Positions 9,387 through 48,596 of a DNA stretch of 64,000 nt are shown here, one piece after another (the first letter of the stretch is position 1; each line of letters starts with the position of its first letter). Both the position numbers and the translations under genes were made by a program. The stretch is from NCBI GenBank assembly GCA_016928995.1, contig JAFGJS010000026.1, positions 1 through 64,000 of the forward strand, in the 5' to 3' direction. Below the pieces are notes generated by a model that did no database searches, had not been told where the DNA came from, and saw nothing but the letters and a program-made list of their open reading frames with translations. Source of the DNA: Candidatus Sumerlaeota bacterium. GTDB taxonomy: Bacteria; Sumerlaeota; Sumerlaeia; JAFGJS01.

Positions 9387-10505
9387 TCATTGCGCCTGAG
9401 ATCGAAAGAACTCTGGATTCTTCATCGGCGGAGGATCGAGGATTTCGTAGTAAAAATTGCGCTGGCGAGGCTCCAGGCCGATGTCGCGGATCATATCGAG
9501 CAGATCGCTTTCGTGCACATCGTGCGAGCAACCCGCCGCGCTGACCACGTTCTCCTCCAGCATCGTGCTGCCTACGTCGTTGCCGCCGAACATCAGGCCG
9601 ATTTGACACATCTGCTTCCCTTGCGTGACCCACGACGCCTGGATGTTGCGGAAGTTGTCGAGATACAGCCGCGAAATCGCCAGCGTCTTGAGGTATTCAT
9701 GCCCGCCCACCATCGGCACGTCTTGCATGCCCGGCGTGTTTTCCGCTTGAAACGTCCACGGAATAAAGGCGATGAAGCCTCCCGTCTCGTCCTGCAAGCC
9801 GCGGATCCGGCGCAGATGCTCCACGCGATCCTCATATTGCTCCACGTGGCCGAACATCATCGTGGCCGAAGTCTTCATCCCGAGTTTGTGCGCCTCGCGC
9901 ATCACGCCGATCCATTCATCGGACGTGGCCTTGCGCGGCGCGATCTGCTTCCGCACGCGCTCGCTCAGGATTTCCGCGCCGCCGCCGGGCAGGCTCTCCA
10001 GTCCGGCCGCCATGAGCCGCTGGAGCGTCTCGCGTACGCTCAGCCGGTTCATCTTCGTGAAGTGGATGATCTCCGGCGGCGAGAAGCAGTGCATCTGCAA
10101 CATCGGGAACTCGGACTTGGCCCAGCGCAGCAGTTCCTCGTACCATTCGAGTTTCAGCGTGGGATGATGCCCGCCCTGCATCAACACCTGCGTGCCGCCG
10201 TGCGCCGCGGTCTCGGCGAATTTCTGCCGCATCGTCTCGCGATCCAGCACGTAGCCCTTTTCCGCATCCTTGGGCTTGGCGTAAAACGCGCAAAACTGAC
10301 AATCGACCACGCAGACGTTCGTATAGTTCACGTTCCGGTCTACGATATACGTCGCCACTTTCTCCGGAATCTTACGCCAGCGCGCCGCATTCGCCGCCTG
10401 CCCCAGCGCCAACAGATCATTCGACCGGAACAGCGCCAGACATTCCTCGTCGGTGATACGTTCACCGTTGAAAGATTTTTGTAATATCGACGATAGTGGC
10501 TTCAT
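9387..10505 (-). CDS. mqnC: cyclic dehypoxanthinyl futalosine synthase MqnC
   Basis: A 372-residue radical SAM enzyme of the futalosine menaquinone pathway. It converts dehypoxanthine futalosine to its cyclic form. The [4Fe-4S] motif CVVDCQFC (C-x3-C-x2-C) lies near residue 64, followed by the family landmarks GGHHPTLKLEWYEEL, LPGGGAEIL and FGHVEQYEDRVEHL. The PKDAEKGYVL region after the cluster and the HHP motif match MqnC better than MqnE, which is encoded separately at 13504-14649. The ATG overlaps the stop of the small upstream gene as ATGA. mqnA, mqnB and mqnD are not in this window. Confidence 0.9.
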   Translation of the reverse strand: MKPLSSILQKSFNGERITDEECLALFRSNDLLALGQAANAARWRKIPEKVATYIVDRNVNYTNVCVVDCQFCAFYAKPKDAEKGYVLDRETMRQKFAETAAHGGTQVLMQGGHHPTLKLEWYEELLRWAKSEFPMLQMHCFSPPEIIHFTKMNRLSVRETLQRLMAAGLESLPGGGAEILSERVRKQIAPRKATSDEWIGVMREAHKLGMKTSATMMFGHVEQYEDRVEHLRRIRGLQDETGGFIAFIPWTFQAENTPGMQDVPMVGGHEYLKTLAISRLYLDNFRNIQASWVTQGKQMCQIGLMFGGNDVGSTMLEENVVSAAGCSHDVHESDLLDMIRDIGLEPRQRNFYYEILDPPPMKNPEFFRSQAQ

Positions 10506-13503: not shown

Positions 13504-14649
13504 TTAGCGCTGAACGGAATCGCGTCCGGCGTTGCTGTCATGAATCCGCACGATATCAAACGTCGTGTCACGCTCCACGGGACGGCGTCCGGTCTCGGCG
13601 ATGAGGCGCACGATCTGCTCGACCGGCAGCAGTTGCGGCGTATCGGCGCCGGCGAAATGCGTGATGCGCTCCTCGGTCACGGTGCCGTCGAAATCGTCCG
13701 CGCCAAAATGCAGCGCGGTCTGCGCGAGTTTCAATCCCAACATCGTCCAGTACGCCTTGACATGATCGAAGTTGTCCAGCATCAAGCGCCCCACGGCGAT
13801 GCAGCGCAGATCGGTCTGCCCCGTGGCGTGGCGCAAATGCGAAAGTTTCGGCGTATTTTCCGGGTGAAAATGCAGCGGAATGAAAGTCATGAAGCCGCCG
13901 GTTTCATCCTGTAATCCGCGCAGCCGCAGCATATGATCCAGACGATCCTCGGCCGACTCCACATGGCCGTAAAGCATCGTGGCGTTCGACTTCACTCCCA
14001 GCTGATGCGCCGTTCGATGCACCTCGCTCCATTTGTCCCAGCGGATCTTCTGTTTGCAGATCTGATCGTGGACGTGATCGGCGAAAATCTCCGCTCCGCC
14101 TCCGGGCATCGAATTCAGCCCGGCCTCAATCAGCTCGGTCAGGACTTCCTCGTATGACTTGCGGAACTTGCGCGCGAAATAGTCGATCTCCACGGCGGTG
14201 AAGCCCTTCAGATGCACATGCGGAAATTCCGCCTTCAACGCGCGCAGCATGTCGAGGTAATACTCCCACGGCAATGTGGGATGCAGCCCTCCGACCACAT
14301 GGAACTCGCGCGCGCCAATCGCCACGCCGCGCCGGGCGCGCTCCACGATCTCCTCCACGCTATACACCCAGGCGTGCGCGTCGCCTTCCTTCGCGGAAAA
14401 GGCGCAGAAGTCGCAGCCCAGCGCGCAAATGTTGCAATAGTTGATGTGCTGATTGATGATGAAATACGCGTCGTCGCCGTTTTTCGCCGCGCGCACGATC
14501 CCGGCCAGCTGCCCGGCTCCGATCAAATCAGGCGTTTCGAACAGCACGCGCCCATCCTCCAGGCTCAGCCGCTCCCCTGCCACAACCTTCTCATAGATCG
14601 GCCACAATGCCCGGTCCAGCATAGCAAGGTTGACTACGCATTGTTCCAC
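13504..14649 (-). CDS. mqnE: aminofutalosine synthase MqnE
   Basis: A 381-residue radical SAM enzyme that joins 3-enolpyruvylbenzoate-type chorismate product and SAM to form aminofutalosine, an early step of futalosine menaquinone synthesis. The cluster motif is CALGCDFC near residue 74, preceded by INQHINYCNI. Other landmarks are VVGGLHPTLPWEYYLDML, SMPGGGAEIF, LYGHVESAEDRLDHM and LRGLQDETGGFM. GLHP after the cluster, where mqnC has GHHP, supports MqnE. The frame opens with a GTG at 14649; an ATG nine codons later lacks a ribosome site. It lies 42 bases after secA on the same strand. Confidence 0.9.
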   Translation of the reverse strand: MEQCVVNLAMLDRALWPIYEKVVAGERLSLEDGRVLFETPDLIGAGQLAGIVRAAKNGDDAYFIINQHINYCNICALGCDFCAFSAKEGDAHAWVYSVEEIVERARRGVAIGAREFHVVGGLHPTLPWEYYLDMLRALKAEFPHVHLKGFTAVEIDYFARKFRKSYEEVLTELIEAGLNSMPGGGAEIFADHVHDQICKQKIRWDKWSEVHRTAHQLGVKSNATMLYGHVESAEDRLDHMLRLRGLQDETGGFMTFIPLHFHPENTPKLSHLRHATGQTDLRCIAVGRLMLDNFDHVKAYWTMLGLKLAQTALHFGADDFDGTVTEERITHFAGADTPQLLPVEQIVRLIAETGRRPVERDTTFDIVRIHDSNAGRDSVQR

Positions 14650-41590: not shown

Positions 41591-41622
41591 TGAGGCGCGT
41601 CTTAAACCCAAGGCGCGCCTCA
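41591..41622. terminator. hairpin between convergent genes
   Basis: TGAGGCGCG (41591-41599) pairs perfectly with CGCGCCTCA (41614-41622) with a 14-base loop. It lies between the convergent DUF3352-like and thioesterase genes and overlaps the thioesterase stop. There is no long T run, so termination efficiency is uncertain. Confidence 0.4.
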
Positions 41623-42057
41623 ATCATTAATGCCGAAAACATCATATCCCGCGCGCAAGACGCGGCGTTCCGGGCTGACAAACGGATGCAGCGTGCTCCC
41701 CTCGGCGACCAGCGCGCCGTCCGCCTGCTCCACGCGACACTCGAACTCCAGCCGCGTGCGCGTCAGTTCCTTCGCGCGCGTGACCACGGTGATCAGATCG
41801 TCGTACATCGCCGGCGCATGATAGCGCACGCGGCATTCGCGCACGGGCAGCAGGATTCCGCGCTGCTCCAATTCCTTGTACGACACGCCGAAATCGCGAA
41901 TCCACTCCGTGCGCCCCATCTCGAACCACACCAGGTAGCGCGCATAATACGCATGCCCCATGATGTCCGCGTCATGATACGTCACCCGCACCTGAATGCG
42001 ATTCTCATGCGCCAGCACATCCTCCAACGTCATCGCTTGTTTCACATGCTCCTCCAA
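41620..42057 (-). CDS. YbgC/FadM-type acyl-CoA thioesterase (hot-dog fold)
   Basis: A 145-residue 4HBT protein. The signature VTYHDADIMGHAYYARYLVW holds the catalytic Asp (position about 28) and GHAYYARY, then WFEMGRTEWIRDFG. The rest keeps the hot-dog pattern (VRECRVRYHAPAMYDDLI, EFECRVEQADGALVAEGST). It should hydrolyse acyl-CoA thioesters in the cytoplasm. It starts 4 bases after the DUF1854 gene ends, within the exporter operon. Confidence 0.88.
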   Translation of the reverse strand: MEEHVKQAMTLEDVLAHENRIQVRVTYHDADIMGHAYYARYLVWFEMGRTEWIRDFGVSYKELEQRGILLPVRECRVRYHAPAMYDDLITVVTRAKELTRTRLEFECRVEQADGALVAEGSTLHPFVSPERRVLRAGYDVFGIND

Positions 42058-42061
42058 TGAA

Positions 42062-42556
42062 TCAAATGAACCGGTCGAGAACCGCGCGGCTGCGCGAGGA
42101 TAGGGCGGAGACGTCGCGGATGGCGTAACGGCAGTTGTGCACGTCGTTGATGAAGATCATGCCGTTTTTCATCGGTTTGACTTCTTCCACGCGGCCCTTG
42201 ACGTAGAAATCGCGCGGACCGCGATCCGTTTCGGTGCGCCAGAGGCAGTAGCCGTACTCTTCTTTGATCTCACTAACCTCGGTGATCATGGGCACGGCGT
42301 AATAGTAATCCAGGTCTTCCTTGATTAAGCGGCGCGCGTCCGCATCGAGCGCGGCCAGGTTCTCAAGGATGCCGATCTCCTTGCCTTCCTTATCCGCGAT
42401 GGAAATATAATGATCGGGCCGGCTGACGGGAAATAGCCGTCGCAGCATGATATGGTCGAATCCGGCTTCGTCCTTGATTTCGAGCCGCAAAAATCCCGTC
42501 TCCTCTCGGGAGAACAGACATTGCTCGGGCGTCAGCAATCGCGCGTCGTCGCTCAT
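42062..42556 (-). CDS. DUF1854 protein coupled to the ABC exporter
   Basis: A 164-residue soluble protein with RRLFPVSRPDHYISIADKEG, then GKEIGILENLAALDADARRL, DLDYYYAVPMITEVSEIKEE and a C-terminal IFINDVHNCRYAIRDVSAL. This matches DUF1854 as I recall it. Its ATG overlaps the stop of the ABC gene as ATGA. As I remember, the family is found next to this same type of ABC transporter, sometimes near cyanophycin genes. Biochemical function is not known to me. The tight coupling suggests a regulator or partner subunit of the exporter. Confidence 0.85.
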   Translation of the reverse strand: MSDDARLLTPEQCLFSREETGFLRLEIKDEAGFDHIMLRRLFPVSRPDHYISIADKEGKEIGILENLAALDADARRLIKEDLDYYYAVPMITEVSEIKEEYGYCLWRTETDRGPRDFYVKGRVEEVKPMKNGMIFINDVHNCRYAIRDVSALSSRSRAVLDRFI

Positions 42557-44784
42557 CCTTCCACCGCCTGAATTTCTGAAGTCTCTTTGTGGAGGTTGAC
42601 CAGACGATGATAAACTCCATCGTCCATCTCAACCAATTCCTGATGCGTGCCTTGCTCGACGAGCTTGCCTTTGTCGAGCACGATCAGCCGGCTGGCGTTG
42701 CGCAGCGTGGAAAGCCGGTGCGCGATGGCGATGGTCGTGCGTTGCTTCACCATGCGCTCGATGGCCTCCTGAATCTGCTTCTCCGTTTCAAGGTCCACGC
42801 TGGCGGTCGCCTCGTCCAGAATTAAAATCTTCGGATCGCACAGGATGGCGCGGGCGATGGAAAGCCGCTGCTTTTCGCCTGAGGAGAGATTCCCGCCGCC
42901 TTTCGAGAGTTCCGTATCGTAGCCGTCAGGCTTGCTCATGATGAAGTCGTGGGCGTTGGCGGCCTTTGACGCCTTGATGATGTCAAAGATGGTCGCGTTG
43001 GGCCGGCCGTAGGCGATGTTTTCCGCGATGGTGCCGTCGAGCAGGAACGTCTCCTGCATCACGAATCCGATCTGGTTGCGCAGGTCTTCGTATTTGATGT
43101 CGCGAATGTCCACGCCGTCGATAAAGATATGCCCGGCGTCCGTTTCGAACAACCGGCACAGCAGGTTGACGAAAGTGCTCTTGCCTGCGCCGGACTTGCC
43201 GACCAGGCCGATCATCTCCTTCGCCTCGATTTTGGAGGTGATGTCATGCAGCACAGGCTTGTCCACGTGATAGCCGAAGGTCACGTCCTTGAATTCAATC
43301 TTGCCCTGAATATCGGGCATGGACACAGCGTTCGGCGCGTCGGCGATTTCCGGCTCGGAGTCGATGATATCGAACACGCGGCTGGCCGCAGCCAGCGTAT
43401 TGGGGACCATCTGCGCCAGCCGTGTCAGCATGATCACCGGACGAAAGAGCATGCCGAGGTATCCGGTGAAGGCAAAGATCGCGCCAAGGGTCATCTTGTC
43501 ATGAAACACCAGCCACCCGCCGATCAGCCAGACCAACGGCATTCCGGACATAATCAGGGCATGCATCATGGGAAAAACCGTGGCGAATCGCAATTCCGCG
43601 GCATACTCGGTGTCCCGATAGGCTGTGCTATGAAAATCGAACCGGCTCTTTTCGGATCGTTCCTGATTAAAAACCTTCACCACTCGTACGCCGTTGACCA
43701 CGTTTTCCACGAATGAAGAGAGGCGCGACCTTTTCTCAAAGTGCCGCTGCCAGTAGATGCGGAATTGCGGAAAGAACTTACGCACAATGATCACTATGCC
43801 GATGATCGGCAGGAACATGAACAACGTCAGAATCCACGACAGGTATAAAAGCAAAGCCAGCACGCCGATGCCTGTCAGGATACAGCTGATACCCTCGGGC
43901 ACGAAATCCACCAGCAACCGGTTGAACTGCCCGGTGTCCTGATTTACCCGCGTGATCAAGCTGCCGGCCTTGTGCCGGGAATAGAACGAAAGCGAAAGTT
44001 CTTGAAGTTTATGAAACATCGCGCCGCGCACATCGCAAACAGCGCTTGTCCCGAGATACGCCGAGCGTTTCCAGGTCAGCATCTCAAACAGGCTTTCGGC
44101 GACGAAGCAGACGACCATGCCCAATACAAGGAAAGGGAGCCAATGGAAGTTCTGTACCGGCTTGATCACGTCGTCCACCAGAATCATGCTGAGATACGGC
44201 GCGACAAGGCCGATGCCGGTGCGCGTGGTCATCAGGATGAAGATCATCGTCACATCGCGCTTGTAGGGCTTGAGGAACGAGAGCACCTTGAGCATGAGCT
44301 TGCCCTTGTCCATGCAACGCGGACAAACGCTCATCTCGTCGGTCAAGGGCCGGCCGCAGCGCGGGCAGACGTTGGGCGCGTCAATCGACTCCGGCTTCCA
44401 CTCCTTTTCCTTGAGCCACGTGTTGATCATGCGGACAGCTTCGGAAAAATCCTTCTGCCGGACGTTGGATATACGCATCAAGCGCTCGCGAAAGTTGCCC
44501 TTCTTGACCTCGATTACCGCGCTGCTGATGCCTGGTTTGACGGAAAGCTCCTCAATCTGTTCGAACGTGTATTCGGCTGAGACTTCCACCCCTGCGCCGT
44601 TTTCGGAAAGGACGCCGAGCTGCGAGTCGTTCATCAGCAGCCAGGCATTGCCGAATTGACCATTCAGCAGCATATCGCCCGGAACGGCCAGGCGCCATTT
44701 CGAGTCCTCGCCGAAACGCTGGCGCGCCACAGCCGCCGCCGCTTCGGGCAATTCAGCTTTCAGATGAAAATGTTTCTCACTCAT
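42553..44784 (-). CDS. ABC exporter with N-terminal domain and zinc ribbon
   Basis: A 743-residue fusion. Residues 1-130 form a sensor-like alpha/beta (possibly PH-like) domain. A zinc ribbon follows with Cys at about 140, 143, 154 and 157 (CPRCGRP, then CPRCMDKG). Next come six membrane helices (175-450) of an ABC type IV exporter. The ATPase has GKSGAGKST (Walker A, near 525), LSSGEKQRLSIARAI (signature) and KILILDEATASVD (Walker B). It should export a substrate by homodimer action. The zinc ribbon plus N-terminal domain is unusual for this class. The gene starts after a 344-base gap and is followed at 4-base overlap by DUF1854. The start has no obvious ribosome site. Confidence 0.93.
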   Translation of the reverse strand: MSEKHFHLKAELPEAAAAVARQRFGEDSKWRLAVPGDMLLNGQFGNAWLLMNDSQLGVLSENGAGVEVSAEYTFEQIEELSVKPGISSAVIEVKKGNFRERLMRISNVRQKDFSEAVRMINTWLKEKEWKPESIDAPNVCPRCGRPLTDEMSVCPRCMDKGKLMLKVLSFLKPYKRDVTMIFILMTTRTGIGLVAPYLSMILVDDVIKPVQNFHWLPFLVLGMVVCFVAESLFEMLTWKRSAYLGTSAVCDVRGAMFHKLQELSLSFYSRHKAGSLITRVNQDTGQFNRLLVDFVPEGISCILTGIGVLALLLYLSWILTLFMFLPIIGIVIIVRKFFPQFRIYWQRHFEKRSRLSSFVENVVNGVRVVKVFNQERSEKSRFDFHSTAYRDTEYAAELRFATVFPMMHALIMSGMPLVWLIGGWLVFHDKMTLGAIFAFTGYLGMLFRPVIMLTRLAQMVPNTLAAASRVFDIIDSEPEIADAPNAVSMPDIQGKIEFKDVTFGYHVDKPVLHDITSKIEAKEMIGLVGKSGAGKSTFVNLLCRLFETDAGHIFIDGVDIRDIKYEDLRNQIGFVMQETFLLDGTIAENIAYGRPNATIFDIIKASKAANAHDFIMSKPDGYDTELSKGGGNLSSGEKQRLSIARAILCDPKILILDEATASVDLETEKQIQEAIERMVKQRTTIAIAHRLSTLRNASRLIVLDKGKLVEQGTHQELVEMDDGVYHRLVNLHKETSEIQAVEG

Positions 44785-46361: not shown

Positions 46362-48596
46362 ATGAACGAACAAGAAAAATTAATCATCGATATGATCAAA
46401 CGCCGTCAGCATGACAAGGCGGAGACGGTATGGCTGAACTATTGCGAAAAACCCGGCCGCAACATGCAGTTCTACATGCAGTTGGTCAAGTTGCTGGCCA
46501 AATCGAAAAACAACCGGCGGCTGAACGAGTTCGGCGGACTTGTGGTCTCGAACATGATCAAAGAGGGAGATTACCGCTCCGCGATCCGCGTCGGCCGGCT
46601 TTTCATCAAAGGATTGAACGCTGAGTGCGCATTCCTGCCGCAGATCGTGGAATGCGTGCGCAAGCTGAACGAAAAACGCCCTCGCCTGGATGAATACATC
46701 CAGCTATCTAAACTGGAAGAAGACAACGACACCAACGCGGCGCTGAACAGACTGGACGTGCTGCTCTACAACGATGAAGGAGAAGTTTTCGCGCACGACG
46801 TCAGCGGCATCGGCGTGATCACGGTTAACGACACGCAAGAACGCAAAGTCTTAATCGAATTCGAAAACGGCGAGACTAAGGAATTCAACTATGACGGCGT
46901 GCGGCAGTTTCTCTACAAGTATCCGGCGGGGCATTTTCATGCGCTGCGCATGAAGAATAAAGACAAGCTGAAAAAGATCGCGCTGAGCCGCCCATTGGAT
47001 TTCATGCGGATCGTCTTGCGCAGCCACGACAAGGAAATCCGGTTGGACGAACTGAAGGAACTGCTGACGCACCGCTTCCTTAAAGCTTCGGAATGGCAGA
47101 AGTGGTGGCGGGACAGCCGCGACGCGCTGATGCTGGATCCGTACATTGAATTTACCGGCGGCGCGCGCGGGGCGTTCAAACTGCGCGAAACGCCGCGCGA
47201 GTTGGACGAAGAACTGGCGCAACGCTTTCGCAAAACCAGCGACTCAAACTCGCGGCTCTCGATCATCAAGGAAGCGCACAAGCAATTCAACGGCGATGAG
47301 AAACTCAACCGCCTGATCGCGCTGTGCGAAGAAGTGCTGCGCGAGGATTTCCAGATCGCGCAGGGCGACGGAGATGAACGGGCCGTCCAGCGCATCGAAC
47401 TGGCTTTCCTGTGGGAGGATCTGCACGCCGGAACTGGAGAGCCGATCCCCGGCTTCGATCCCTTCATGGAATTAAGCGATCCGGGCAAGGCCAGCAAACG
47501 GGCGATGACCATGTCTTCCTACGACCATCAGACGCGCGTGCTGGAGCGTTTCGCGGCCTATCACCAGGAAGAGCAAGCCTGGACGCGCTACTTCGCCAAG
47601 ATCCTGTCCAATGCTTCGCCACGCCTGGCGACCTGGATCATCAAGCAATTGGACGATGCGGGCGAGAAAGACCTGTTGCACAACACCGTCGAACGCATCG
47701 TGAGCAATCCGGCGGAAAATCCCGAGATGTGCATCTGGGCGATGAAACAGGCGTACGACGGAAAATGGGATTCCTTTTACCAGCTGGAGTTCCCGCATAT
47801 CCGCATCATGGACCTGATGGAAGTCATGCGCGACCTCTACAACCTGGCGGACCAGACGCCGGAGCTTTCTTCTCGGCTACGCGGCACGATCGCCAAAGTC
47901 CGCAACTTCCTCTGGGACGGACATTGCAAATTCATGATGGACGCCATCGACGGAATCCCGGTGGACGACGCGCGCAAGCTGCGCAATATGATCCGCAATC
48001 ACCCGGCGCTGAACGAGCACTTCGTGTCCGAGGCGATGGCAGCCTTCCGCAAGGTCCGCGACGATCTGATCGAAGTGCAGCAGCAATCGGAAGAGGAGCT
48101 GATCGTATACGTGACAGCGCATACCCTGGCGAATCGCCAAACCGAGTTGCGTCGCATTACGACGGAAGACATTCCCCGCACCAGCGAGGCCATCGGGCGC
48201 GCGCGCGAACTGGGCGACTTGCGGGAAAACGCCGAGTATCACGCCGCGCGCGACGACATGCGCGTCTTGATGGCGCGCAAGGATGAACTCACCGCGCTGA
48301 TCCAGCGCGCGCGGATTATCGAGATTGATAAAATCGGCACGAACGAGGTGAATATCGGCACGCGATTCATCGCGCGCAACCTGACGCTGGATGAAGAGCA
48401 ACAATACACCATCCTGGGTCTGTGGGACGCCGATCCCGAACGCGGCATCCTGAACTATCGCTCTCCGCTGGCCGAGCAATTCCTGGGCAAAAAACCCGAT
48501 GTGGAGTTCGAGATCGAAATGCCCACTGGCGGCGAGGCCCGGTATATCATCCGTAACATCGAACGCGCCGAGTTGCCCGTCGAGGCGTCCAGCTGA
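46362..48596 (+). CDS. greA: GreA/GreB-family elongation factor with ~580-residue N-terminal extension
   Basis: Residues about 580-744 are a complete Gre factor. A coiled-coil hairpin (TLANRQTELRRITTEDIPRT) leads to its tip ELGDLRENAEYHAARDDM, which keeps the acidic Asp/Glu that rescue stalled RNA polymerase. A C-terminal FKBP-like domain follows (TRFIARNLTLDEEQQYTILG, ending EMPTGGEARYIIRNIE). The first ~580 residues are helical and charged, TPR-like (LLAKSKNNRRLNEFGGLVVS). E. coli GreA has only 158 residues. I recall Chlamydia GreA as a ~720-residue protein of the same plan. The N-terminal role is unknown. No other elongation gene is nearby. Confidence 0.88.
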   Translation: MNEQEKLIIDMIKRRQHDKAETVWLNYCEKPGRNMQFYMQLVKLLAKSKNNRRLNEFGGLVVSNMIKEGDYRSAIRVGRLFIKGLNAECAFLPQIVECVRKLNEKRPRLDEYIQLSKLEEDNDTNAALNRLDVLLYNDEGEVFAHDVSGIGVITVNDTQERKVLIEFENGETKEFNYDGVRQFLYKYPAGHFHALRMKNKDKLKKIALSRPLDFMRIVLRSHDKEIRLDELKELLTHRFLKASEWQKWWRDSRDALMLDPYIEFTGGARGAFKLRETPRELDEELAQRFRKTSDSNSRLSIIKEAHKQFNGDEKLNRLIALCEEVLREDFQIAQGDGDERAVQRIELAFLWEDLHAGTGEPIPGFDPFMELSDPGKASKRAMTMSSYDHQTRVLERFAAYHQEEQAWTRYFAKILSNASPRLATWIIKQLDDAGEKDLLHNTVERIVSNPAENPEMCIWAMKQAYDGKWDSFYQLEFPHIRIMDLMEVMRDLYNLADQTPELSSRLRGTIAKVRNFLWDGHCKFMMDAIDGIPVDDARKLRNMIRNHPALNEHFVSEAMAAFRKVRDDLIEVQQQSEEELIVYVTAHTLANRQTELRRITTEDIPRTSEAIGRARELGDLRENAEYHAARDDMRVLMARKDELTALIQRARIIEIDKIGTNEVNIGTRFIARNLTLDEEQQYTILGLWDADPERGILNYRSPLAEQFLGKKPDVEFEIEMPTGGEARYIIRNIERAELPVEASS

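Follow-up and report, generated by a model that had tools for sequence, protein, structure and literature searches.

Comparison of sequences across phyla strongly supports DUF1854 as the dedicated partner of an ABC exporter that carries a predicted PH-type domain at its N terminus. We consider it probable (roughly 0.6) that the two proteins form a single machine made of a type IV ABC exporter homodimer and a dedicated cytosolic DUF1854 subunit, and in it the PH domain and DUF1854 would recruit cargo or gate the pump. The pair was studied in a 64,000-nucleotide stretch of DNA, here called the window, from a Candidatus Sumerlaeota genome (4.55 Mb in 161 contigs, 92.5% complete). The features concerned are as follows.

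42553-44784, minus strand: ABC exporter half-transporter, 743 aa (open reading frame, Pfam, motifs)
44398..44754, minus strand: predicted N-terminal PH-fold domain, exporter residues 11-129 (structure model, VIA)
44314..44367, minus strand: zinc-ribbon-like CPRC-x10-CPRC linker, exporter residues 140-157 (cysteine motif)
42062-42556, minus strand: DUF1854 protein, 164 aa (PF08909), with halves 11-87 and 88-164
41620-42057, minus strand: YbgC/FadM-type acyl-CoA thioesterase (TIGR00051, 85.4 bits; cut-off 68.7)

Both reading frames of the pair lie where the original prediction had placed them, with the 4-base overlap (42553-42556) that it described. Its claim that exporter helices and ATPase occur in one protein is borne out by Pfam matches far above their cut-offs: PF00664 (ABC_membrane) at residues 179-450 (121.3 bits, cut-off 28) and PF00005 (ABC_tran) at residues 512-661 (112.2 bits, cut-off 25), a combination in one chain that identifies a type IV (ABCB-like) exporter. 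The ATPase motifs are intact, with GKSGAGKS as Walker A, LSSGEKQR as signature, ILILDEA as Walker B and AHR as H-loop. The LSSGE of the signature is a variant of LSGGE, and the same position varies in a few relatives. The putative PH domain and CxxC ribbon precede the first exporter helix. PF08909 matches residues 33-163 of the DUF1854 protein at 132.6 bits (cut-off 26.8) over the full length of the profile (1-130 of 130). This arrangement is not due to chance, since it recurs in other genomes from several phyla; the window genome itself has a second exporter/DUF1854 pair on another contig (C147), with an exporter that lacks the ribbon. The thioesterase gene starts 4 bases past the end of the DUF1854 gene and may be co-transcribed with the pair. 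It is not a recurrent partner, as no such cluster occurs among the gene families that recur near pairs.

We collected 58 non-duplicate DUF1854 genes. Thirty-nine are directly downstream of an exporter gene on the same strand and 11 are fused to the exporter C terminus; one has a divergent exporter across two cphA genes, and the remaining seven are without an exporter in the retrieved stretch. A narrower set of 53 genes was restricted to those found by PF08909 alone, leaving out L030, L032, L035, L036 and L038. The last four were left out because L032 and L035-L038 had been found by fused-copy patterns and would bias the fusion counts; L037 was kept, its genome having also been found by PF08909 (G044). 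In this narrower set 45 genes (45/53) either form a fusion with such an exporter or follow it directly, and the genomes of the other eight all encode an exporter of the same kind, of 736-764 aa, elsewhere. A further PF08909 match (G329:C12, 28.1 bits) was dropped; our own DUF1854 profile did not recover it. Members of Sumerlaeota, Omnitrophota and Planctomycetota, along with some bacteria not placed in a named phylum, encode fused proteins, and well-supported branches in both the exporter tree and the DUF1854 tree force at least two fusion events. The distribution of DUF1854 is patchy, with 9 of 40 Sumerlaeota and 33 of 294 Planctomycetota genomes having it. The natural fusions and the co-occurrence uphold the earlier statement that DUF1854 genes accompany such transporters.

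A profile of the N-terminal PH domain, built from 48 rows, matches all nine DUF1854-bearing Sumerlaeota, partly by construction because these genomes supplied profile rows, so that among Sumerlaeota the real test lies in the negatives only. Among eight DUF1854-free Sumerlaeota there was a single weak match, in a 295-aa frame, and none of 36 DUF1854-free Planctomycetota matched; most of the genomes compared are incomplete metagenome assemblies. Pairwise distances among exporters and among DUF1854 proteins are correlated (Spearman 0.56, 57 pairs). To take species descent out of the comparison, co-evolution was also tested in six genomes by swapping partners between paralogues within a genome. 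Out of 192 assignments the true pairing ranked first when two fragmentary exporters were excluded, with or without the fused rows; when they were kept it ranked 11th of 768.

The original prediction described a sensor-like N-terminal domain of the exporter and proposed structure prediction of residues 1-165. We predicted this region together with seven relatives; the domain stands and is predicted to adopt a bacterial PH fold, which replaces the sensor label. The model (mean pLDDT 84.0, pTM 0.71) runs from a helix through seven strands to a long helix at the C terminus. The strands occupy residues 32-106 and the helix residues 107-126, a topology that matches solved PH domains, in which a barrel of 4+3 strands is capped by a helix. 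The top VIA match was the bacterial PH domain 3hsa (Z 9.9 over 108 residues, 3.2 A), 3dcx reached Z 9.7, and 42 of 999 chains had Z of 8 or more. Foldseek returned almost exclusively PH, PTB and FERM-F3 domains with probabilities near 1, the best E value being 1.1e-3 and none falling below 0.001. At the sequence level no Pfam PH model reaches its cut-off on this domain; bPH_3 (PF14470) agrees with the predicted fold but scores only 16.3 bits (E 0.014) against a gathering score of 23, and has matches at E <= 1 in 7 of 48 relatives. The solved relatives of this fold, from PF08000/DUF1696 (3hsa and 3dcx), form stand-alone oligomeric rings according to the available part of their report (PMC2817789), whereas the predicted PH domain of the window heads an exporter.

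The four cysteines named earlier (140, 143, 154 and 157) are confirmed, as the motif CPRCGRPLTDEMSVCPRC begins at residue 140 and has the CxxC-CxxC pattern. The putative zinc ribbon is modelled with pLDDT 59-74, and Pfam zinc-ribbon models stay below cut-off on this stretch (Zn_Ribbon_1, 17.3 bits against 25). A ribbon-like motif is present in 40 of 55 related exporters. The ribbon is dispensable, because a Phycisphaeraceae fusion protein (L037, 3649-6513) has lost the ribbon cysteines and retains its PH, exporter and DUF1854 parts. Among solved type IV exporters, TM_0288, Sav1866 and MsbA share the membrane domain and ATPase with the window protein (residues ~160-735); their matches start at residue 160 or later and thus leave the PH domain and ribbon uncovered.

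The DUF1854 protein is, as judged by profile comparison, made of two homologous halves that represent an internal duplication. The halves score 24.9 against each other; none of 200 column shuffles exceeded 16.6, and with one half reversed the score was 11.1. The predicted structure (pLDDT 85.5, pTM 0.58) gave weak, PH-like or DUF1285-like matches for the halves, with a best Z of 4.8. This best match joins the second half to DUF1285 (PF06938; 2ra9, with 2re3 as a further structure) over only 65 residues. Foldseek gave no match for the halves at E <= 0.001, a sequence search at E <= 1 recovered no solved relative of DUF1854, and a profile comparison of the halves with the exporter N-terminal domain gave no PH homology (probability 0.4-2.5%). 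DUF1285 was not reported in a Pfam scan of DUF1854 proteins. The two families are alike in being duplicated and beta-rich; for DUF1285 the authors of the structures noted a domain duplication and a superficial similarity to PH domains, and the part of their paper available to us mentions no exporter link, unlike the situation in DUF1854 (PMC2954208).

What the pair transports has to be considered against its existing annotation. The best NCBIfam models for the two proteins, NF052233 and NF052234, are labelled "cyanophycin metabolism-associated" and describe the same kind of two-gene system, with an alignment that is full-length and includes the N-terminal domain. In the genome G261 a DUF1854 gene comes immediately after two cphA genes, and a divergent exporter gene adjoins them. 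These observations bear out the earlier statement that such pairs can lie near cyanophycin genes, and they would fit a cyanophycin-pathway transporter that moves cyanophycin precursors or breakdown dipeptides. The window pair, however, falls below both curated equivalog cut-offs: the exporter scores 522.6 bits on NF052233 (cut-off 880; its paralogue in the same genome scores 642.7) and the DUF1854 protein 104.7 bits on NF052234 (cut-off 150). With cphA called by TIGR02068 at more than 850 bits, the window genome, at its 92.5% completeness, has none, the best match being 133.5 bits. None of the 40 Sumerlaeota genomes, including the nine with DUF1854, has a cphA match even at E <= 1e-60. The original prediction had held that absence of cphA from nearly all genomes with the pair would reject the link, and cphA is absent by our cut-off from 42 of 45 such genomes. 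The three positives are distributed as 0/9 in Sumerlaeota, 3/32 in Planctomycetota and 0/4 in others. The Planctomycetota number 32 and not 33 because of dropped rows, namely the G329:C12 match mentioned above and a sub-cut-off match in G225, and the others are six genomes with fused or near-fused pairs, minus G044 (Planctomycetota) and G041 (a Sumerlaeota contig already counted). Among DUF1854-free Planctomycetota, 1 of 20 has cphA over cut-off. The archaeon Sulfolobus acidocaldarius, which alone among 14 control genomes has PF08909 over cut-off, is not among the control genomes with cphA at E <= 1e-60.

Even where cphA is present, the exporter gene is far from it in two of the three genomes. 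In G328 the DUF1854 gene is about 8 kb from cphA and the exporter is elsewhere, and in G150 all three genes are mutually distant. Of nine genomes scanned, exactly three have exporters above the NF052233 cut-off (1060, 1016 and 1010 bits), and these are the three cphA genomes. In the exporter tree the exporters of these three fall into a single clade with full support; in the DUF1854 tree, unlike the exporter tree, the corresponding rows are not one group (two changes). The closest tree neighbors of the window exporter are two exporters from Planctomycetota (SH-aLRT 98), and all three lie outside a group of nine rows that contains the cphA clade; the second exporter of the window genome lies inside that group. 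The cyanophycin link is real but belongs to one clade of the pair, which is probably a specialised branch of the exporter family. For the window pair we discarded cyanophycin as cargo, given the absence of cphA and the failure to reach either model cut-off; its cargo is probably not cyanophycin-derived, and a cyanophycin transporter is a very improbable reading of it. The original caution that the substrate of the window pair is open stands.

Two other explanations concern the nature of the cargo and the role of DUF1854. The exporter could be an MsbA-type flippase for envelope lipid, with the PH and DUF1854 parts sensing or binding membrane lipid. The MsbA model TIGR02203 is the next-best model of the exporter, PH folds often bind lipid, and in the window an acyl-CoA thioesterase gene follows immediately downstream. 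The TIGR02203 match is nevertheless below its cut-off (437 bits against 602), the thioesterase does not recur beside other pairs, and the scattered occurrence of the pair described above is unlike that of an essential flippase, all of which makes this explanation improbable, although less so than a cyanophycin transporter. Alternatively, DUF1854 might help the pump to assemble or keep it stable, or might switch it as a sensor of a small ligand, and not be a subunit that recruits cargo. The match of its second half to DUF1285 would be in keeping with a sensor, since the accessible text on that duplicated fold suggests a nucleotide ligand and a signalling role (PMC2954208). As noted, that match is weak, and 11 genes encode DUF1854 covalently fused to the exporter, which is more readily expected of a permanent component than of a transient chaperone. 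We regard such a factor or sensor as unlikely, while giving it more weight than the flippase.

Type IV exporters expel their substrates through ATP-driven alternating access. In the machine that we favor, the exporter homodimer and its DUF1854 subunit would work as a single unit, with the PH domain and DUF1854 placed on the cytosolic face beside the ATPase domains as a collar. These modules may act in the manner of PH/PTB adaptors that bind peptide or lipid, and binding would either recruit the cargo or license the pump, after which ATP would drive the cargo outward. The closest case with experimental backing is a functional likeness in enterocin DD14, for which it is reported that the PH-domain proteins DdE and DdF, whose genes ddE/ddF are export genes together with ddHIJ, are needed for export beside an ABC transporter, and that deletion of either one stops export even though the ABC genes are expressed (PMC8657885). 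There the PH domains reside in separate membrane proteins, and DUF1854 is not mentioned in that portion of the paper (PMC8657885). Bacterial PH domains have been proposed to function in membrane transporters or pores (PMC2817789).

More broadly, and only tentatively, these proteins might constitute a distinct class of ABC exporters in several bacterial phyla and perhaps in archaea. Cytosolic PH-type modules would choose the cargo or gate the pump in this class, namely a PH domain in front and a duplicated, PH-like DUF1854 as an obligate subunit, and the cyanophycin members would be one specialised branch. We think this possible, with odds somewhat against it. In a full-text search, which most subscription papers fall outside, "DUF1854" appeared in no paper, and neither did "NF052233"; the literature found assigns DUF1854 no role beyond the cyanophycin label. 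Its position as a fused or obligate partner of the PH-exporter, mostly in genomes without cphA, corrects the annotation of such genes and makes an uncharacterised family open to testing as a transporter subunit. Should the PH modules select cargo, ABC exporters would have in them a means of selection on the cytosolic side, for which leaderless-bacteriocin export provides no more than a loose precedent.

Gene neighborhoods were considered as a clue to the cargo and set aside: the families present in at least three loci come mainly from five orphan-type DUF1854 loci, and no gene recurs near the pairs in a way that names the cargo. Two small, generic-looking neighbor clusters, named by eye, are response-regulator-like (L014, L102, L115) and sulfatase-like (L080, L081, L112). 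A defence system was likewise rejected, as the exporter matched nothing in PADLOC beyond generic ATPases and DUF1854 had no match there. Viral contigs contained no relatives, and a match on a Burkholderia plasmid proved to be a generic exporter without DUF1854.

A divergent subclass of DUF1854 forms one well-supported group from five Planctomycetota genomes (L107, 4428-5024; L109, 4678-5286; L114, 3140-3634; L115, 4430-5215; L116, 4276-4878). In these genomes, which weigh against the favored reading, the exporter is not adjacent and is found elsewhere. Judged by eye, most of the genes adjoin one for a trypsin/HtrA-like protease, and several have RecA-like and DUF342-like genes upstream.

Elsewhere in the window, positions 46362-48596 encode a protein of 744 aa in which a long, unrelated N-terminal part precedes a C-terminal part that, by eye, resembles GreA. 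Positions 9387-10505 and 13504-14649 encode paralogous proteins that, by eye, resemble radical-SAM enzymes of the futalosine menaquinone pathway.
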